Shown here piece after piece: positions 2,928 to 8,647 of a stretch of DNA of 50,107 nt (its first letter is position 1; each line of letters opens with the position of its first letter). The notes below the pieces were generated by a model that ran no database searches, was not told the DNA's origin, and was given only the letters and a program-made list of their open reading frames with translations. Source of the stretch: Deltaproteobacteria bacterium (GTDB lineage Bacteria; Desulfobacterota; Syntrophobacteria; Syntrophobacterales; Syntrophobacteraceae); NCBI GenBank assembly GCA_021777755.1, contig JAJYDE010000029.1, positions 1 to 50,107 on the forward strand, given 5' to 3'. Both the position numbers and the translations under genes were made by a program.

Positions 2928-5612
2928 CTAGCCGTTCAAATATGCTCTGGCCTGCCGGTGAACGGCCGGGCAGGCATGGTCGGAGACATTTGCGGCTATG
3001 CGCTCCAGGGCGGCTAGCACCAGGGGCTGGATAGCGGGTTTCATTTTGCGCACGTGCTGAAAGGTGTTGAGCATGCGGGCGGCGTTTGTGTAGTTCATGG
3101 GGGCGAGTTCGATCACCAGGTCGGCGATCCAGTTTATGCCTCGCTCGTTCCAGATCATCTCGTTATTGGCGGCCAAGGTCAGAAACAGGGCTCTGCACCA
3201 GGTGGGCTGGGAGATCTGGAAAGTCGGCCTGGCGCGTTCCTTTTCGATCTGTTCGAAGGCGTCCGGCCGGTTTCCGCTTGCTATCACCCGCAGATAATTG
3301 GCATAGCCGGTAATGCTCGAATGCCACAGGTCGTAGGTCTGCTCGAGGATGTCGAGCCTTTCGGGCGCCGAGGAGCGGTTAAGGGCCACAAGAGCCGAAA
3401 CCTTGTCGTTTGCGATTGTGGCGCGGTGCAAGTGGTCGAGAATAAGGGCGTGAGTCCGCGGGGTGTCTTCCACGGCGATCAGATCGAGAAGAACGCTTTT
3501 GAGTTGCCTTTGCTCGATTCCTTCAAGCAGGGTCTCGGGCGACCAGGGGCTGTAGGTATCGAGATTATCGAACTGCTTGCGCAGTTCCCGGCCGTAGAGG
3601 TTGTTTACCGCGAGCATGAGTCGATGCCTTGCGGCGGCCAGTTCGGGAAACCACGCGCAATATTTTCTGTCCATCGGCTGCTCGTCGATTCTAAGGGTAA
3701 AAGCCCGAAGAGCGGGGGCGGTTGACTCATCCGAGAGAATCTCACCGTAGAGGCCCAGCCAGAGCGGGTCGATATCCTCGGTTCCCCCCGTCAGCAGTTT
3801 TTTACGTTCGATATCGGTCAGCATGCGCATGGCGTTGACGCGACAGTAGAAGTTGGGATCGGTCCTCGCCTGTAGAGTGAGCGTGTCCGCAGTTGCGCTT
3901 TCATTGATAAAAGTGCCGTAGAAGGAGTAGTCCCTGTTTATGGAGGCGAAAGCGGGAGGGGAGGCTAGATTTTCCAAGCGGATCTCGGCTTCGGGCCGGC
4001 TCAGTTCAAAGACCCGGTCGGTCCCCGGGATATCGGTCCCCTTTGCGTCGACCAGGGCAAGCCGTATCGGGACGACGAAGGGGGGATTTCCTTCCCCGCT
4101 TTCCTGTTTGAAACGGAGATGAAACGAGCGATTCGCGGCGTCCCAGCGCGTGGTTGCGCTGACGCGGGGATATCCTATCCGGTAGAGCCACTGCTCTTTG
4201 AATTCCCCGAGAGATCTTCGCGAGGCTTCCTCGAAACATTGGAAAAACTGGTCGGTGTTTGCGTTGCCGAAGCGATAGCGGGAAAAATAGAGCGTTTTGC
4301 CCGCCCTGAACTTTTCTTCGCCAATTAGCAGGCGCAACATTCGGATGACTTCGGCCGCCTTGACGTAGGTCACCCCGTCGATCAATTCGTCGGGGTCGTT
4401 GAAGCCTTCGCGCACGATGCGTCCGGCATGTCCGGCGTCTTCTATGGAAAGCGGGCCGAGCAGCGGGCTGCGAATGGAGTCCACCTGGTTGAGCCTGACC
4501 ACGGTCGGATCGAAGACATCGGCCATGAAGCGCCTTTCCACATCGACCGTGTAGGCCTCGTTCAGCCAGACGTCGAAGGGGGTCTCCATGGTCGTTTCGC
4601 TGCCGCACTGGTTGTGTTCGAATTCGTGGACGATCACCGCATGGGCGTAGAAGAGGAACTGGTCCATGGTGTGCTCGCCAATCAGGGCGGCATCCGTTAC
4701 GATGGTGGTATTGCCCACGTTTTCCATGCCGCCGAAATTGGAGCGGCTCATGCAAATGGTGCGGTATGTATCGCCGCTGTATTCATAGTCCTGGGCGGCT
4801 TTGATCCAGAGAACCGATTTTTTGAGAATTTTCATGGGAATTTTGGCGCCGCCGCTCTGGCCGGGCGGAACGAGGTATTCGAGTTCCACCGTGCGGCCCG
4901 AATCGAATGTCACCCGGTCTTTCAAGACATCCCAGGTGCCCGCGCAGGCGATAAAGAGGTAGGGGGCCATAGGGACGGGGTTGTCGAAGGTGATCACCTG
5001 CCGGTCGGGCCGGTCGGGCCTGCGCACCGGAACTCCGTCGGGATTGAGCGCGCGGTCGATATTGCCGTTGCTTATGAGGTGGGTGTAGGCCGCGTCGCCT
5101 TCGAGGGTGGTCCTCATGGTGCATTTGGCGCGGCAGTCGTCAAAGATGGGCATGATTCTCTGAAAGCCCCACTGCTGGCACTGGGACATGTACTGCTGGG
5201 GCGCTCCCGGAGGGGTTACGTCCTTGTAGATGCCTTCGAGGAGAAATTCCGAAGGACGGCAAGCGGTTCTGGTCATCACCACGAAGGGTTCTTCGGCCAA
5301 GACCCTTCGGGGCAGCATGACGACAAGCCGGTTTTGAGCCGCGAGGTACTCGTAGTCGATCGGCACGGCCTGCGCGCCGGTCCGCGGGAGCCATTCCACG
5401 CCGATTATCTCCAGGTCCCGGGCATCGAGTTCGATACGGTCGAGTTCGCGGGCGGCCCTCATGTGAAGGCGGTTTGTGGCCTCCACCCGGTCTTCGAGGA
5501 AGTTGATATGGATGTCAAGGTGATCCAGCCGAACTGGAAGCTCACCGAAATCGGACCGCAGATATTTATGTTTTTCGCTCGGCAATTGGTTTCTCCTCGA
5601 AAGATGATTCAA
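2928..5612 (-). CDS. pepN: PepN-like M1 family metallo-aminopeptidase
   Basis: An 894-residue protein, close to the size of E. coli aminopeptidase N. It removes N-terminal residues from peptides in the cytoplasm. The substrate-gripping motif GGMEN lies at about 294-298. The zinc site HEFEH is at 329-333, with the third ligand in NEAYT (E352), exactly the HExxH-x18-E spacing of gluzincins. The C-terminal half is the helical domain of the PepN branch. There is no signal peptide. Its ATG overlaps the stop codon of dinB as ATGA, so the two genes are translationally coupled. The usual HELAH is HEFEH here, which keeps all metal ligands. Function is secure; substrate preference is not visible. Confidence 0.92.
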   Translation of the reverse strand: MNHLSRRNQLPSEKHKYLRSDFGELPVRLDHLDIHINFLEDRVEATNRLHMRAARELDRIELDARDLEIIGVEWLPRTGAQAVPIDYEYLAAQNRLVVMLPRRVLAEEPFVVMTRTACRPSEFLLEGIYKDVTPPGAPQQYMSQCQQWGFQRIMPIFDDCRAKCTMRTTLEGDAAYTHLISNGNIDRALNPDGVPVRRPDRPDRQVITFDNPVPMAPYLFIACAGTWDVLKDRVTFDSGRTVELEYLVPPGQSGGAKIPMKILKKSVLWIKAAQDYEYSGDTYRTICMSRSNFGGMENVGNTTIVTDAALIGEHTMDQFLFYAHAVIVHEFEHNQCGSETTMETPFDVWLNEAYTVDVERRFMADVFDPTVVRLNQVDSIRSPLLGPLSIEDAGHAGRIVREGFNDPDELIDGVTYVKAAEVIRMLRLLIGEEKFRAGKTLYFSRYRFGNANTDQFFQCFEEASRRSLGEFKEQWLYRIGYPRVSATTRWDAANRSFHLRFKQESGEGNPPFVVPIRLALVDAKGTDIPGTDRVFELSRPEAEIRLENLASPPAFASINRDYSFYGTFINESATADTLTLQARTDPNFYCRVNAMRMLTDIERKKLLTGGTEDIDPLWLGLYGEILSDESTAPALRAFTLRIDEQPMDRKYCAWFPELAAARHRLMLAVNNLYGRELRKQFDNLDTYSPWSPETLLEGIEQRQLKSVLLDLIAVEDTPRTHALILDHLHRATIANDKVSALVALNRSSAPERLDILEQTYDLWHSSITGYANYLRVIASGNRPDAFEQIEKERARPTFQISQPTWCRALFLTLAANNEMIWNERGINWIADLVIELAPMNYTNAARMLNTFQHVRKMKPAIQPLVLAALERIAANVSDHACPAVHRQARAYLNG

Positions 5613-6766
5613 TGGGTGTCAAGCATTCGTCCCCGCACCACCACGTCTTGCCGGTAGCGTCCGCGAAGCTCGTCCAAGGCGCGGTCGAGCCGGCCCTTTC
5701 GCCCGGCTTCGAGCCCCGGGGGCTCCATGTCCATCTGCCTGGGGCCCGAATAAAAATTTGAAGCCCCGAGCCCCACGAGGCGCACTTTTTGCCCCGTACA
5801 GATCTGCGAAAGGAGCTTTTGCCCCGTGCTGAAAAGGATCTCGGTGGAATCCAACGCTTCGGGCAGTGTGCAACTCCTCGTCACGGTTTTAAAGTCGAAA
5901 AATTTGATTTTAAGGGTAACCGTTCTTGCCCTCAAGCCCGATTTGCGAAGCTCGCAGCCAACTTCCTCGGCCCGGGAAAAAAGCACCTTTTCCAATTCCG
6001 CGATACAGGCGGTGTCGCGGGCGAGGGTGTGTTCGGCGCTAACCGACTTCGGAGCACCGTGGGGGGCAACCGGCGAATCGTCTATCCCCTGTGCCCTGCA
6101 AAGGAGAACCTCGCCCCACTTGCCAAACCTGGCCCGCCAGAAGGCGGCGGGAAACCTCAGGATATCGGCGGCAAAAACGATGCCCAGCTTGCTCAGTTCT
6201 CCCAGGGTTTTGGTGCCAACGCCCGGTATCTTGCCGACGGGAAGACGTGCCAGGAAATCTTTGACCCGCTCCTGATCGACAATCGTCAGTCCGTCGGGCT
6301 TTTTGTAGTCCGAGGCGATTTTGGCAAGATACTTGTTCGGCGCTATGCCGATCGAGCAGGTGAGCGAGGCGGATTCAAAAATCGACAACTTTATACGTCG
6401 GGCGAGATCTTCGGGGGGGCCGTGAAGCCTGCGGGTCCCGGTAACGTCGACATAGGCCTCATCGATGGAAACCTGTTCGACCAGGGGAGAAACCGAGCGC
6501 AGAATGGCCATGACGGTGCCGGAAGCCTCCTTGTAGCGACTCATTCGGACCGGGAGGAAGGAAGCTTGCGGACAAAGTTTTTTGGCCTGAAAAACCGGCA
6601 TGGCCGAGTGAACGCCAAAGCGCCTTGCTTCGTATGAGGCAGTGCAGACCACCCCGCGCGCCTCCGCGCCCACGATGACCGGCTTGCCCTTGAGTACGGG
6701 ATTGTCCGCCTGTTCGACCGAGGCGTAAAAGGCGTCCATATCCAGGTGCAAAATTTTTCTCGTCAC
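5609..6766 (-). CDS. dinB: DNA polymerase IV (Y-family)
   Basis: A 385-residue translesion polymerase. Metal-binding acidic residues are in HLDMDAFYASVE at the N terminus and SIDEAY at about 101-106, as in DinB. The helix-hairpin-helix region reads IPGVGTKT. A QMDM stretch near the C terminus resembles the usual sliding-clamp motif. I chose the GTG at 6766 because family members begin just before KILHLDMD; the frame extends 17 codons further without similarity. It is the first gene of a two-gene unit with pepN, sharing an ATGA junction. No LexA box is evident upstream, so SOS control cannot be claimed. A TATAAT-like -10 element at 6849-6844 (minus strand) may belong to its promoter. Confidence 0.93.
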   Translation of the reverse strand: MTRKILHLDMDAFYASVEQADNPVLKGKPVIVGAEARGVVCTASYEARRFGVHSAMPVFQAKKLCPQASFLPVRMSRYKEASGTVMAILRSVSPLVEQVSIDEAYVDVTGTRRLHGPPEDLARRIKLSIFESASLTCSIGIAPNKYLAKIASDYKKPDGLTIVDQERVKDFLARLPVGKIPGVGTKTLGELSKLGIVFAADILRFPAAFWRARFGKWGEVLLCRAQGIDDSPVAPHGAPKSVSAEHTLARDTACIAELEKVLFSRAEEVGCELRKSGLRARTVTLKIKFFDFKTVTRSCTLPEALDSTEILFSTGQKLLSQICTGQKVRLVGLGASNFYSGPRQMDMEPPGLEAGRKGRLDRALDELRGRYRQDVVVRGRMLDTH

Positions 6767-7137
6767 TTGTTCAACTTCATGCCGAAAAGCGAAACAGCGC
6801 GCCGGCTCCGCGATCACTTCCCGAATCGAGGCCTCGCAAACCCATTATAATACCGATAGTCGAAAGCGAAGAAGCGATAAAAAGGGGCGGGGTCGAAAAG
6901 GGAGGGGAAAAAAGGTTAAACCCCAAGTGACCGTTTCATCAGCCCATCTTCACCGCGTTTGGTTCATCCCGGTTAACTTGCCTCAACTTCCCATCGAAGC
7001 TTTTTAGACTTCTTTTTTCCGCTGAGGTTTCCCCCGGGCATATCAACTGGGCCTCTTACTCGGACCTCTCGGGGTTCAAGCTTAATTTAAGACGGCAAAA
7101 GCGATTGTCAAGAAATCTTTTTTCAGAAATCGCTGTT
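6767..7137. other. Intergenic stretch between dinB and hpt
   Basis: About 370 bases with no credible gene. On the minus strand a TATAAT lies at 6849-6844 without a good -35. Near 7080-7137 the minus strand has AGCGATT and AATCGCT arms followed by a short T-run, separated by a long loop. That is at best a weak terminator for hpt. Confidence 0.4.
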
Positions 7138-7695
7138 TCAGCGGCGGTTGAGTCCGGTGATTTCATCGCTCAGGACGCCGACGTAGGGCAGGTTGCGGTA
7201 GAGCTGGCGAAAATCAAGGCCGTAGCCCACAAGGAAGCGGTCGGGCGCCTTGAAGCCTCTGAAGGCGATGGGGATTCTTACGATTCGGCGGACCTCCTTG
7301 TCTAGAAAGGCGCACACGCGGAGGCTGCGCGGCCGCCGGGCCTCAAGGTTTCTAAGAAGATAGCCGGCCGTCATTCCGGTGTCTATTATGCCCTCGACAA
7401 GGATCACGTCTCTGCCTTCGATCACGCAGTCCAGATCCTTTGTAATGCGCGCGGCCCCGCTTGGCCCGCGCATGTCCGCGTAGCTCATGAGCGAGATGAA
7501 ATCCATCTCCACCGGGATATCGAGTTCCCGCACCAAGTCGGACATGAACAGAACGCACCCCTTGAGCACTCCCACCATCAGGGGCGCACGCTCCCTGTAG
7601 GCGGTCGAAATCTCCCGGGCAAGCTCCACGATGCGCTGCCCGATAGTCTCCCGATCGATCAAAACCTCCACGATGCCGTTCGGTTTATCGTTCAT
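7138..7695 (-). CDS. hpt: Hypoxanthine phosphoribosyltransferase
   Basis: A 185-residue purine-salvage enzyme that joins hypoxanthine or guanine to PRPP, giving IMP or GMP in the cytoplasm. The family pattern is clear: VGVLKGCVLFMSDL near residue 40, SYADMRGP further on, the PRPP loop VILVEGIIDTGMT and the C-terminal VGYGLDF. In the PRPP loop the usual acidic pair E-D is E-G here (VEGIIDTG). I noticed this as unusual, since the second aspartate is normally conserved. The ATG at 7695 is preferred over 7710 and overlaps the end of the upstream gene by 11 bases, so the pair is surely co-translated. The neighbour carries an endonuclease-like domain that I recall being found beside hpt in other bacteria. 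Confidence 0.88.
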   Translation of the reverse strand: MNDKPNGIVEVLIDRETIGQRIVELAREISTAYRERAPLMVGVLKGCVLFMSDLVRELDIPVEMDFISLMSYADMRGPSGAARITKDLDCVIEGRDVILVEGIIDTGMTAGYLLRNLEARRPRSLRVCAFLDKEVRRIVRIPIAFRGFKAPDRFLVGYGLDFRQLYRNLPYVGVLSDEITGLNRR

Positions 7696-8647
7696 CGGAC
7701 ACCATCTCACTCAACAGGCCGTATTTGGCCATAAGGGCATAAAAATCCCGCTGATAGAAAATGCGAATATTGACTTCCGGATAAAGGCGCCTCAATTTGC
7801 GCACCTTTCGATTCTTACGGGTGACAAGGCTTTGTTTCAGCGTGGTCAACTCGATGTACAAGTCCTGGTCCGGCAGATAAAAATCGGGCGTGAAGGCTTC
7901 GATTGTCCTTCCGTCCGGGTCGGTTTCCAGCGGAAAGGTCCGGGGCTCGTATTGAAAGGGGATGTGGTAGAAGCTCAGAAAGCGCGCGAACTCGGACTCG
8001 GCGGCGTTTACGTAACGGGCGCCGCTTCGCTTTTGAAGCGGCTGAGAGACTATGTTTTCAACGATTTTTTCTCTGGGTGTTTGCGAGATGCCCATCTCCC
8101 GGGCCGCGGTCACAATCAGCCCGCATGCCTGCTCGATCGACAGCCGATCCATTCGGAGAGTCAAATCGTAGAGGGTCGGCTCCGAGGCGTCCAGATGATG
8201 TAAAAGACGCAAATAGCGGGCGCGCTGCCTTTCGCCGGCCCTTATAAGACTTATCGCCTTGCGCCCGGTAAGGCCCTCGCGCTCTTTTACCTGCGAGATC
8301 CGGAATTTACGCGGCGCGATGAATCGCACATGCAGTGTGCCGGGCCGGTTTCTAAAAAGCCCCTGTGCGCCTCTTTCCAGAACAACCAGGTCCTGCTCTT
8401 CGGCCAACTGGGCGATAAGGTCCTCAAACAACCTGGCATAACCTTCGGTTTCGGCGTCTATTTCGGCGCCCCGGCCCGAGATGGCCTCCTCCACCTTTAT
8501 GAGCCTCGCTTCGTCCAGGTCGACTTCGCCGGAGAGTTGAACCAGCCGTGCCCTGTCCACAAGGCAATAGCCAAGATGGCCGGCCACCCTGGCCGATACC
8601 TCTTTTCCCATAGCTCCGGGTTCTCTGTACACCGTTATGACAGCCAT
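7685..8647 (-). CDS. Cytidylate-kinase-like domain fused to a PDDEXK/Vsr-like domain
   Basis: A 320-residue two-domain protein. Residues 1 to about 200 look like the cytidylate kinase-like family: EPGAMGKEV as a P-loop-type turn, a GLVD-like DRARLV segment, ERGAQ and FRNRPG, then APRKFR and RERQRARYL, which fit nucleotide-kinase lid motifs. Residues about 215 to 320 are different: EFARFLSFYHIPFQYEP, then FTPDFYLPD, YIELTT and RKNRKVRKLR. The order D...E-x-T is that of PDDEXK or Vsr-fold nucleases. Domains of this type are known to me beside hpt in other phyla. Start chosen at 8647, before AVITVYREPG. It overlaps hpt by 11 bases. A minus-strand TATAAT at 8744-8739 may be part of the promoter. 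The substrate of either domain is unknown. Confidence 0.65.
   Translation of the reverse strand: MAVITVYREPGAMGKEVSARVAGHLGYCLVDRARLVQLSGEVDLDEARLIKVEEAISGRGAEIDAETEGYARLFEDLIAQLAEEQDLVVLERGAQGLFRNRPGTLHVRFIAPRKFRISQVKEREGLTGRKAISLIRAGERQRARYLRLLHHLDASEPTLYDLTLRMDRLSIEQACGLIVTAAREMGISQTPREKIVENIVSQPLQKRSGARYVNAAESEFARFLSFYHIPFQYEPRTFPLETDPDGRTIEAFTPDFYLPDQDLYIELTTLKQSLVTRKNRKVRKLRRLYPEVNIRIFYQRDFYALMAKYGLLSEMVSDER

Follow-up and report, generated by a model that had tools for sequence, protein, structure and literature searches.

PurR and PyrR are regulators built on the PRTase fold. Characterized HPRTs respond to (p)ppGpp and PRPP, both of which are held by the PRPP motif according to an excerpt of PMC6783271, and a DNA-binding TilS-HprT complex of Bacillus subtilis activates ftsH, as described in part of PMC8152036. 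Among nucleases, a section of PMC1913061 describes DUF1626 as a PD-(D/E)XK variation with a threonine in motif III and basic residues in the motif IV helix. Here, we analyze a locus in a 50,107-nt stretch of DNA (the window) in which a gene encoding a kinase-nuclease fusion protein overlaps hpt (Table 1); the two genes are referred to below as the cassette. A word search of CC-licensed PMC papers returned no description of the fusion or of the module among the matches listed.

Table 1. Features of the cassette in window coordinates
Feature	Position	Strand	Basis
Fusion protein, cytidylate-kinase-like half and T7-endonuclease-I-like PD-(D/E)XK half, 320 aa	7685..8647	(-)	ORF, Pfam, phmmer, AF2
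N-terminal kinase-like domain, residues 1-185, PF13189, P-loop region EPGAMGKE	8093..8647	(-)	Pfam E 1.7e-28; fold match 3hdt
C-terminal PD-(D/E)XK domain, residues 210-310	7718..8020	(-)	Invariant residues and endonuclease I profile match 1.3e-6
hpt, cassette-type hypoxanthine phosphoribosyltransferase, 185 aa, PRPP motif EGIIDTG	7138..7695	(-)	TIGR01203 E 2.9e-54
11-nt overlap of both reading frames	7685..7695	(-)	Read from sequence

The locus and the N-terminal partner

The start Met of the 320-aa ORF is backed by a relative (L007) whose open frame opens directly at the same Met. An earlier sequence-only reading of the window had noted an 11-base overlap with hpt, which is confirmed here (Table 1); the ATG of hpt sits within the upstream fusion gene, and translational coupling of the two genes via this overlap is likely. 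Directly downstream of the cassette lies a gene read by eye as encoding a DinB-type polymerase (window positions 5609 to 6817, minus strand), and the neighbor at the dinB position in L023 carries IMS domains. Between hpt and dinB, a conserved intergenic element of about 185 nt (6925 to 7113, minus strand) is found that recurs at the same place in L004, L005, and L007 and has a second copy in the window's own genome (L002:1420-1600). Its consensus fold has 36 pairs, 8 of which show two-sided changes in one or more of the five sequences, and an Rfam search of the stretch gave no match at an E value of ≤1. The element is possibly a structured RNA of a new kind.

The nucleotide-kinase-like half proposed in the sequence-only reading is recovered by Pfam, with residues 3 to 167 matching PF13189 (Cytidylate_kin2) over the cutoff (E, 1.7e-28). 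The domain aligns with 3hdt (VIA Z, 22.4; 164 aligned; rmsd, 1.6), which together with 3fdi is its closest solved structure; both are uncharacterized kinase-like proteins. Mean pairwise identity is 0.687 for the nuclease half versus 0.36 for the kinase half, and no residue of the latter is invariant among 38 fusions. By this measure, the conserved core of the protein is the nuclease-type domain and not the kinase half. Even the P-loop lysine (K15) is kept in just 4 of the 38 fusion rows (the window and L023 to L025), and in the window it is followed by Glu. Upstream of the domain, no kinase match was found in the 10 Actinobacteria-labeled and the 8 Armatimonadetes-labeled loci among the best 80 of 512 relatives. 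The three-part link of kinase fold, nuclease fold, and purine salvage that had been suggested therefore holds for the nuclease-type domain and a dedicated Hpt, whereas the kinase is optional, being without a match in these 18 loci, replaced by GAF elsewhere, and mostly without its P-loop lysine. Judged from these matches, the N-terminal partner may be a GAF domain, a kinase fold whose P-loop has decayed, or no recognized domain, and we read these domains as interchangeable sensors. Cytidylate_kin2-like genes are multiplied in this genus, with up to 16 matches per genome (G005 and others).

The nuclease-type domain and its active site

The C-terminal 105 aa match a chain of T7 endonuclease I (3cae) with a phmmer E value of 2e-4, and a profile of 46 relatives matches it at 1.3e-6, in agreement with the PD-(D/E)XK half that had been proposed. 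A Vsr-like character had been proposed as well, but no such match was obtained, and among solved structures the closest relative found is endonuclease I of phage. Against PHROGs, the domain matches phage endonuclease and resolvase families (1.7e-5 and 4e-5). PF05367 is detected in 22 of 46 domain members at E values up to 1 (best, 5e-6), and the window domain stays under its curated Pfam cutoff (16.7 versus 29.1 bits). No curated family was found for the domain itself, the best NCBIfam E value among the 46 relatives being 0.024. On the strength of these profile matches, the domain is distantly related to T7 endonuclease I. The nuclease-like core that structure prediction was expected to reveal is present in the AF2 model of the window protein, which has PD-(D/E)XK topology with a mean pLDDT of 87.3; the two AF2 models analyzed (DSSP) have mean pLDDT values of 87.3 and 90.6 and pTM values of 0.64 and 0.68. 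A fused homologue resembles viral endonuclease I models in Foldseek. In a PDB fold search with whole models, the matches listed are taken up by the kinase and Hpt parts, so that nothing follows from endonuclease I not being among them.

Profile hits in the loci with E values of <1e-30 (239 of 247; eight weaker hits were dropped) comprise 185 distinct domain sequences. Twelve positions are identical in all 185 (window numbering: E217, Y233, E234, F238, P254, D255, F256, E266, T268, K278, K281, and P290), although the invariance at the FTPDF and IELTT blocks is partly by construction because the two peptide patterns of the genome-contig scan spanned both blocks and contain some of these residues. 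The same twelve positions are invariant in a recount on 120 distinct sequences from profile searches (hits with E < 1e-30 only), for which the profiles had been built from mostly pattern-found rows. E217, D255, and E266 correspond to the motif I Glu, motif II Asp, and motif III Glu and are the presumed metal ligands, and K278 and K281 lie in the next (motif IV) helix; K271 is Lys in just 137 of the 185 sequences. HMMER alignments pair E217, D255, E266, and T268 with Glu20, Asp55, Glu65, and Lys67, respectively, of T7 endonuclease I. Frames of about 1000 to 1400 aa in L153, L154, and L204 match this motif block weakly and are probably larger, unrelated nuclease-domain proteins.

The position of the motif III lysine is thus a threonine (T268) throughout. 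A migration of the K278/K281 type is described, so that the absent lysine is compatible with PD-(D/E)XK membership, and since the metal ligands and the two lysines are strictly kept, we infer a metal site that is live but rearranged. The loss of the classical lysine in all 185 sequences would suit the main rival explanation, a nuclease-dead regulator of transcription or RNA whose domain binds nucleic acid only and whose Hpt senses purines or PRPP, in the manner of PurR, PyrR, or the TilS-HprT complex. Such a regulator would be consistent with the sensor-type N-terminal domains (GAF), with the DNA-binding HprT complex described in part of PMC8152036, and with the Asn that replaces the catalytic base in five Chloroflexota fusions, whose genomes hold at least one other Hpt. 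However, three presumed metal ligands and two lysines that are invariant in 185 sequences would be needless for mere binding, and we regard this explanation as unlikely.

Pairing of the domain with a dedicated Hpt

The genome-contig scan with a 7-row profile yielded 512 relatives, the best 80 of which were analyzed. In 75 of these 80 loci, hpt starts less than 1 kb downstream on the same strand, so that the pairing stated for other phyla in the sequence-only reading is a real one; four of the remaining five have no hpt downstream, and one is at a contig end. Even phylum samples, each phylum being set by the locus used as its center, were searched with a 46-row profile. These samples overlap the genomes of the best-80 set, the comparisons are mostly with metagenome-assembled genomes, and taxon names are those of the record titles. 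In the window's own phylum, where the domain is rare, strong hits occur in 3 of 198 genomes, the window's included (two more were weak only), and hpt is directly downstream in all three. The domain is present in 13 of 199 genomes of the Acidobacteria-labeled G237 phylum (one more weak), with hpt directly downstream in 13 of 13, and in 58 of 201 genomes of the G238 phylum (Chloroflexota; six weak hits dropped), where hpt follows directly in 39 of the 49 hits viewed. Corresponding counts are 93 of 198 genomes in the Actinobacteria-labeled G231 phylum (one weak hit dropped; 16 of 30 hits viewed with hpt directly downstream) and 41 of 43 genomes in the G232 phylum (24 of 25 hits viewed). The sole domain-free genomes of the latter 43, G854 and G858, also have no Hpt hit, and their assemblies could be incomplete. 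Among 40 near relatives, the nuclease half is found in 7, the window's own genome counted (G000, G007, G008, G010, G016, G021, and G038), and the domain is therefore patchy within its own genus.

The domain is single copy in nearly all carriers of the four phylum samples centered on G237, G238, G231, and G232. Phage records gave no domain match and plasmid records gave one, and on these grounds a mobile or phage origin was rejected; in two scans of viral contigs, the domain had a single weak relative (L103), and three other matches covered the Hpt part alone. The same counts bear on anti-phage defense, in which a nuclease effector would be fired by nucleotide sensing. The layout of nuclease plus sensor and a weak PADLOC match to PDC-S69 (E, 0.0065) would fit that role, but the single plasmid-record hit and the lack of any phage-record hit do not, nor does a core-gene pattern consisting of near-constant single copy, slow evolution, and presence in nearly all genomes (41 of 43) sampled from one phylum. 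Because the distribution is core-gene-like, we consider defense very improbable.

Domain and Hpt occur in one frame in 6 of the best 80 loci (of 512) and in 21 of 49 Chloroflexota loci, a set that overlaps the best 80. Twelve Chloroflexota fusions (L185 to L196) have frames of 466 to 528 aa with an N-terminal part of a non-kinase kind, and Pfam searches of four of them found GAF and Pribosyltran in all four, with the nuclease-type domain in between. The culture-collection strain Thermomicrobium roseum DSM 5159 encodes a 333-aa fusion (WP_012643103.1; L225:4947-5945) on a 918-kb plasmid record; it is annotated only as hypoxanthine phosphoribosyltransferase, and mutM overlaps its gene. The recurrence of the fusion in several lineages is evidence that both parts act together, and the nuclease-type domain and its Hpt very likely work together. 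An Asn aligns with the HPRT catalytic base in five Chloroflexota fusions (L167, L169, L172, L173, and L202), all from genomes that keep at least one further Hpt, and, as read from its translation, in the T. roseum fusion. Two or three Hpt matches are present in 19 of 20 fusion genomes, 18 of which have at least two over the curated cutoff.

The surroundings of the cassette are variable. We scanned 108 downstream neighbors (of 131 listed) and 106 upstream neighbors (of 135 listed). The commonest families are Nramp and IMS downstream (6 each of 108) and HEAT repeats (9) and ROK (5) upstream (of 106); the six IMS-domain (DinB-type) proteins probably represent two independent lineages, and a MutM-type glycosylase is found in 2 of the 108. 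With immediate neighbors this diverse on both sides, a wider conserved operon was rejected. The variation past hpt leaves no wider pathway context, as would be expected of an ordinary operon in which a housekeeping nuclease is merely cotranscribed with a second hpt. That explanation is improbable in light of the single-chain fusions in several lineages and of the nine genomes that keep a cassette-type Hpt with the two genes on different contigs. An Actinobacteria-type variant (L242, L316 to L318, and L321 to L327) has TTLNQ or TTMNQ in place of TTMKQ in those read. The gene order in L242 is bifunctional nuclease (PF02577), MerR, nuclease-type domain, and glycine cleavage P-protein, and ten genomes with this variant, among them that of L242, have a cassette-type hpt upstream.

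The window Hpt scores 183.3 bits against TIGR01203 (curated cutoff, 150), and its genome holds a second, different Hpt (G000:C57). More than one Hpt match (two or three) is present in 21 of the 26 domain-positive genomes searched, some of the second ones being partial or weak. In the PRPP motif of the window Hpt, E101 and the base Asp (D105) are kept and the second acid is replaced by G102, a Gly also present in its five nearest relatives (L023 to L027); its enzymatic competence is therefore doubtful. Of 128 cassette Hpts, 113 have D as the second acid, and 123 retain D as the base, with Asn in five; going by these alignments, most active-site residues are retained. In four carriers (G235, G238, G243, and G248), no Hpt other than that of the cassette was found, and it therefore probably has enzyme activity in them.

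A tree of 154 Hpts groups 22 of the 25 Hpts without an adjoining domain in one clade (FastTree support, 0.85). The three exceptions are the second Hpts of G251, G242, and G244, whose domain has no adjoining hpt, and the sole cassette within the housekeeping clade is L182, whose adjoining Hpt is of the housekeeping type. A follow-up search covered 18 more domain-positive genomes without hpt directly downstream and 20 domain-negative genomes, with G765 and G797 left out. An Hpt on the cassette side was present in 17 of the 18 further positives versus none of the 20 negatives (hypergeometric probability, 6e-10), four of the negatives lacking any Hpt hit and matches of 42 to 57 bits being kept off the tree. 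The 17 comprise six Chloroflexota genomes (other contigs), ten of the Actinobacteria type (hpt upstream), and G775 (another small contig). In total, 20 of 22 domain-positive genomes without hpt directly downstream have a cassette-type Hpt, versus 0 of 20 negatives; it is on a different contig in nine, upstream in ten, and on another small contig in one, and G252 and G606 have only a housekeeping-type Hpt. The distance between domain and hpt is 0.6 to 2.0 kb (between open frames) in 10 of 11 Actinobacteria-type genomes.

The split in a larger FastTree run is partly circular because the branch was picked by best fit to a residue signature; there, L292, L296, and L301 (housekeeping type, from carriers) fall on the cassette side and cassette L070 on the other. 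IQ-TREE analysis of 137 sequences placed all 79 expected cassette-type Hpts together with the same three extras (UFBoot, 64). The trees are unrooted, and the split is moderately supported (0.85 in FastTree; UFBoot, 64). In a set of 131 cassette Hpts, the residue that follows the RR pair is always L or I; elsewhere, two cassette-type ones have M. A hydrophobic residue at this position was rejected as a diagnostic, since L, I, or V also occurs in L114, L117, L306, and L308, and is better described as a strong trend among the aligned sequences. The Lys at the K133 position is Arg in 70 of the 131. A motif search found a TilS-like or FtsH/AAA motif near 10 of 26 Hpt loci without an adjoining domain; L337:1-2000 encodes a housekeeping Hpt and TilS in one frame (ATP_bind_3, TilS_C, and Pribosyltran), and L335, L338, and L339 have frame lengths like that of this fusion. 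Comparison across these genomes shows that the cassette Hpt differs from the housekeeping Hpt usually also present and that the PD-(D/E)XK domain is genetically tied to this dedicated HPRT, to which it is fused in some lineages, with the single-chain form seen in Chloroflexota and a few other genomes.

Proposed function and comparison with known systems

We tentatively favor a two-part module in which a rearranged metal-dependent nuclease and a dedicated HPRT would couple cleavage to the purine state, with sensors at the N terminus. A nuclease-type effector fits best because the metal site is kept, the cassette Hpt is near-constant, and the sensor-like N terminus is exchangeable. In such a module, the PD-(D/E)XK domain would form a complex with the cassette HPRT and act as a metal-dependent nuclease in which K278/K281 take the place of the motif III lysine. 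With PRPP, purine bases, IMP/GMP, or (p)ppGpp as its ligands, the HPRT part would couple the nuclease to purine status, and in most lineages it probably can still make IMP/GMP. The N-terminal domain (a decayed nucleotide-kinase fold, GAF, or none) may be an added ligand sensor, and the module would then cut or process nucleic acid (DNA or RNA) according to the purine nucleotide state. The alarm role raised in the sequence-only reading, as a form of sensing, is close to this nuclease-type effector.

An alternative role in the repair of deaminated purines would have the nuclease cut at hypoxanthine (inosine) and the Hpt handle or sense the base. The chemical link through hypoxanthine and the DNA-repair neighbors in a few lineages (IMS in 6 of 108, MutM type in 2 of 108, and mutM in T. 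roseum) would be in line with this, but a nuclease releases no free bases, which are what HPRT uses, and the distribution of EndoV (PF04493) is not complementary to that of the domain. EndoV is present in 28 of 58 carriers versus 67 of 143 noncarriers (201 genomes; odds ratio, 1.06; P = 0.88) and in 29 of 93 carriers versus 29 of 105 noncarriers (198 genomes; odds ratio, 1.19; P = 0.64). Replacement of EndoV was rejected, there being no negative association in either phylum sample, and we find a repair role distinctly improbable. For the handling of damaged nucleotides that the sequence-only reading had suggested, this EndoV comparison is an indirect test, and its outcome is negative.

HPRT is generally viewed as acting in salvage; if the favored two-part module is correct, a purine enzyme would here be the control subunit of nucleic-acid processing. 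A broader and more doubtful possibility is that the module represents a new and widespread class of bacterial regulatory nucleases. In this class, a dedicated HPRT that senses purines or alarmones would control a nuclease of the T7-endonuclease-I type, pseudo-kinase or GAF domains would supply additional inputs, and the whole would serve several phyla as a core switch for stress or nucleotide balance. Its frequency in two of the phylum samples (41 of 43 and 93 of 198 genomes) suggests that the module may belong to the core biology of little-studied phyla. Because a named thermophile strain encodes the fused form, the module can be examined with a single purified protein.

With phage T7 endonuclease I (PF05367; 3cae, 2pfj, 1m0d, and 1fzr), the domain shares the fold type, the motif order, and the position-equivalent Glu, Asp, and Glu. 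It differs in having Thr for the motif III Lys together with two invariant lysines in the next helix, and in being chromosomal and tied to hpt. DUF1626, DUF506, and DUF790 have a motif III Thr (DUF1626) and/or a basic residue shifted to the motif IV helix, as given in part of PMC1913061; the likeness to them is one of active-site pattern, taken from that published description. The kinase half agrees with Cytidylate_kin2 (PF13189; 3fdi and 3hdt) in fold and profile, with a P-loop that is decayed in the fusions. The Hpt of the window resembles bacterial HPRT (TIGR01203) in scoring over the curated cutoff; the cassette type differs in usually being a second Hpt of its genome, with a D-to-G replacement in the window lineage and an Asp-to-Asn replacement of the base in five fusions. 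The TilS-HprT complex of B. subtilis, in the portion of PMC8152036 drawn on here, likewise joins HPRT to a nucleic-acid-related partner from an upstream gene. In the cassette, that partner is instead a nuclease-type domain, and in the genomes searched for motifs it is Hpts without an adjoining domain of this kind that have a TilS-like or FtsH/AAA motif close by, in 10 of 26 loci.
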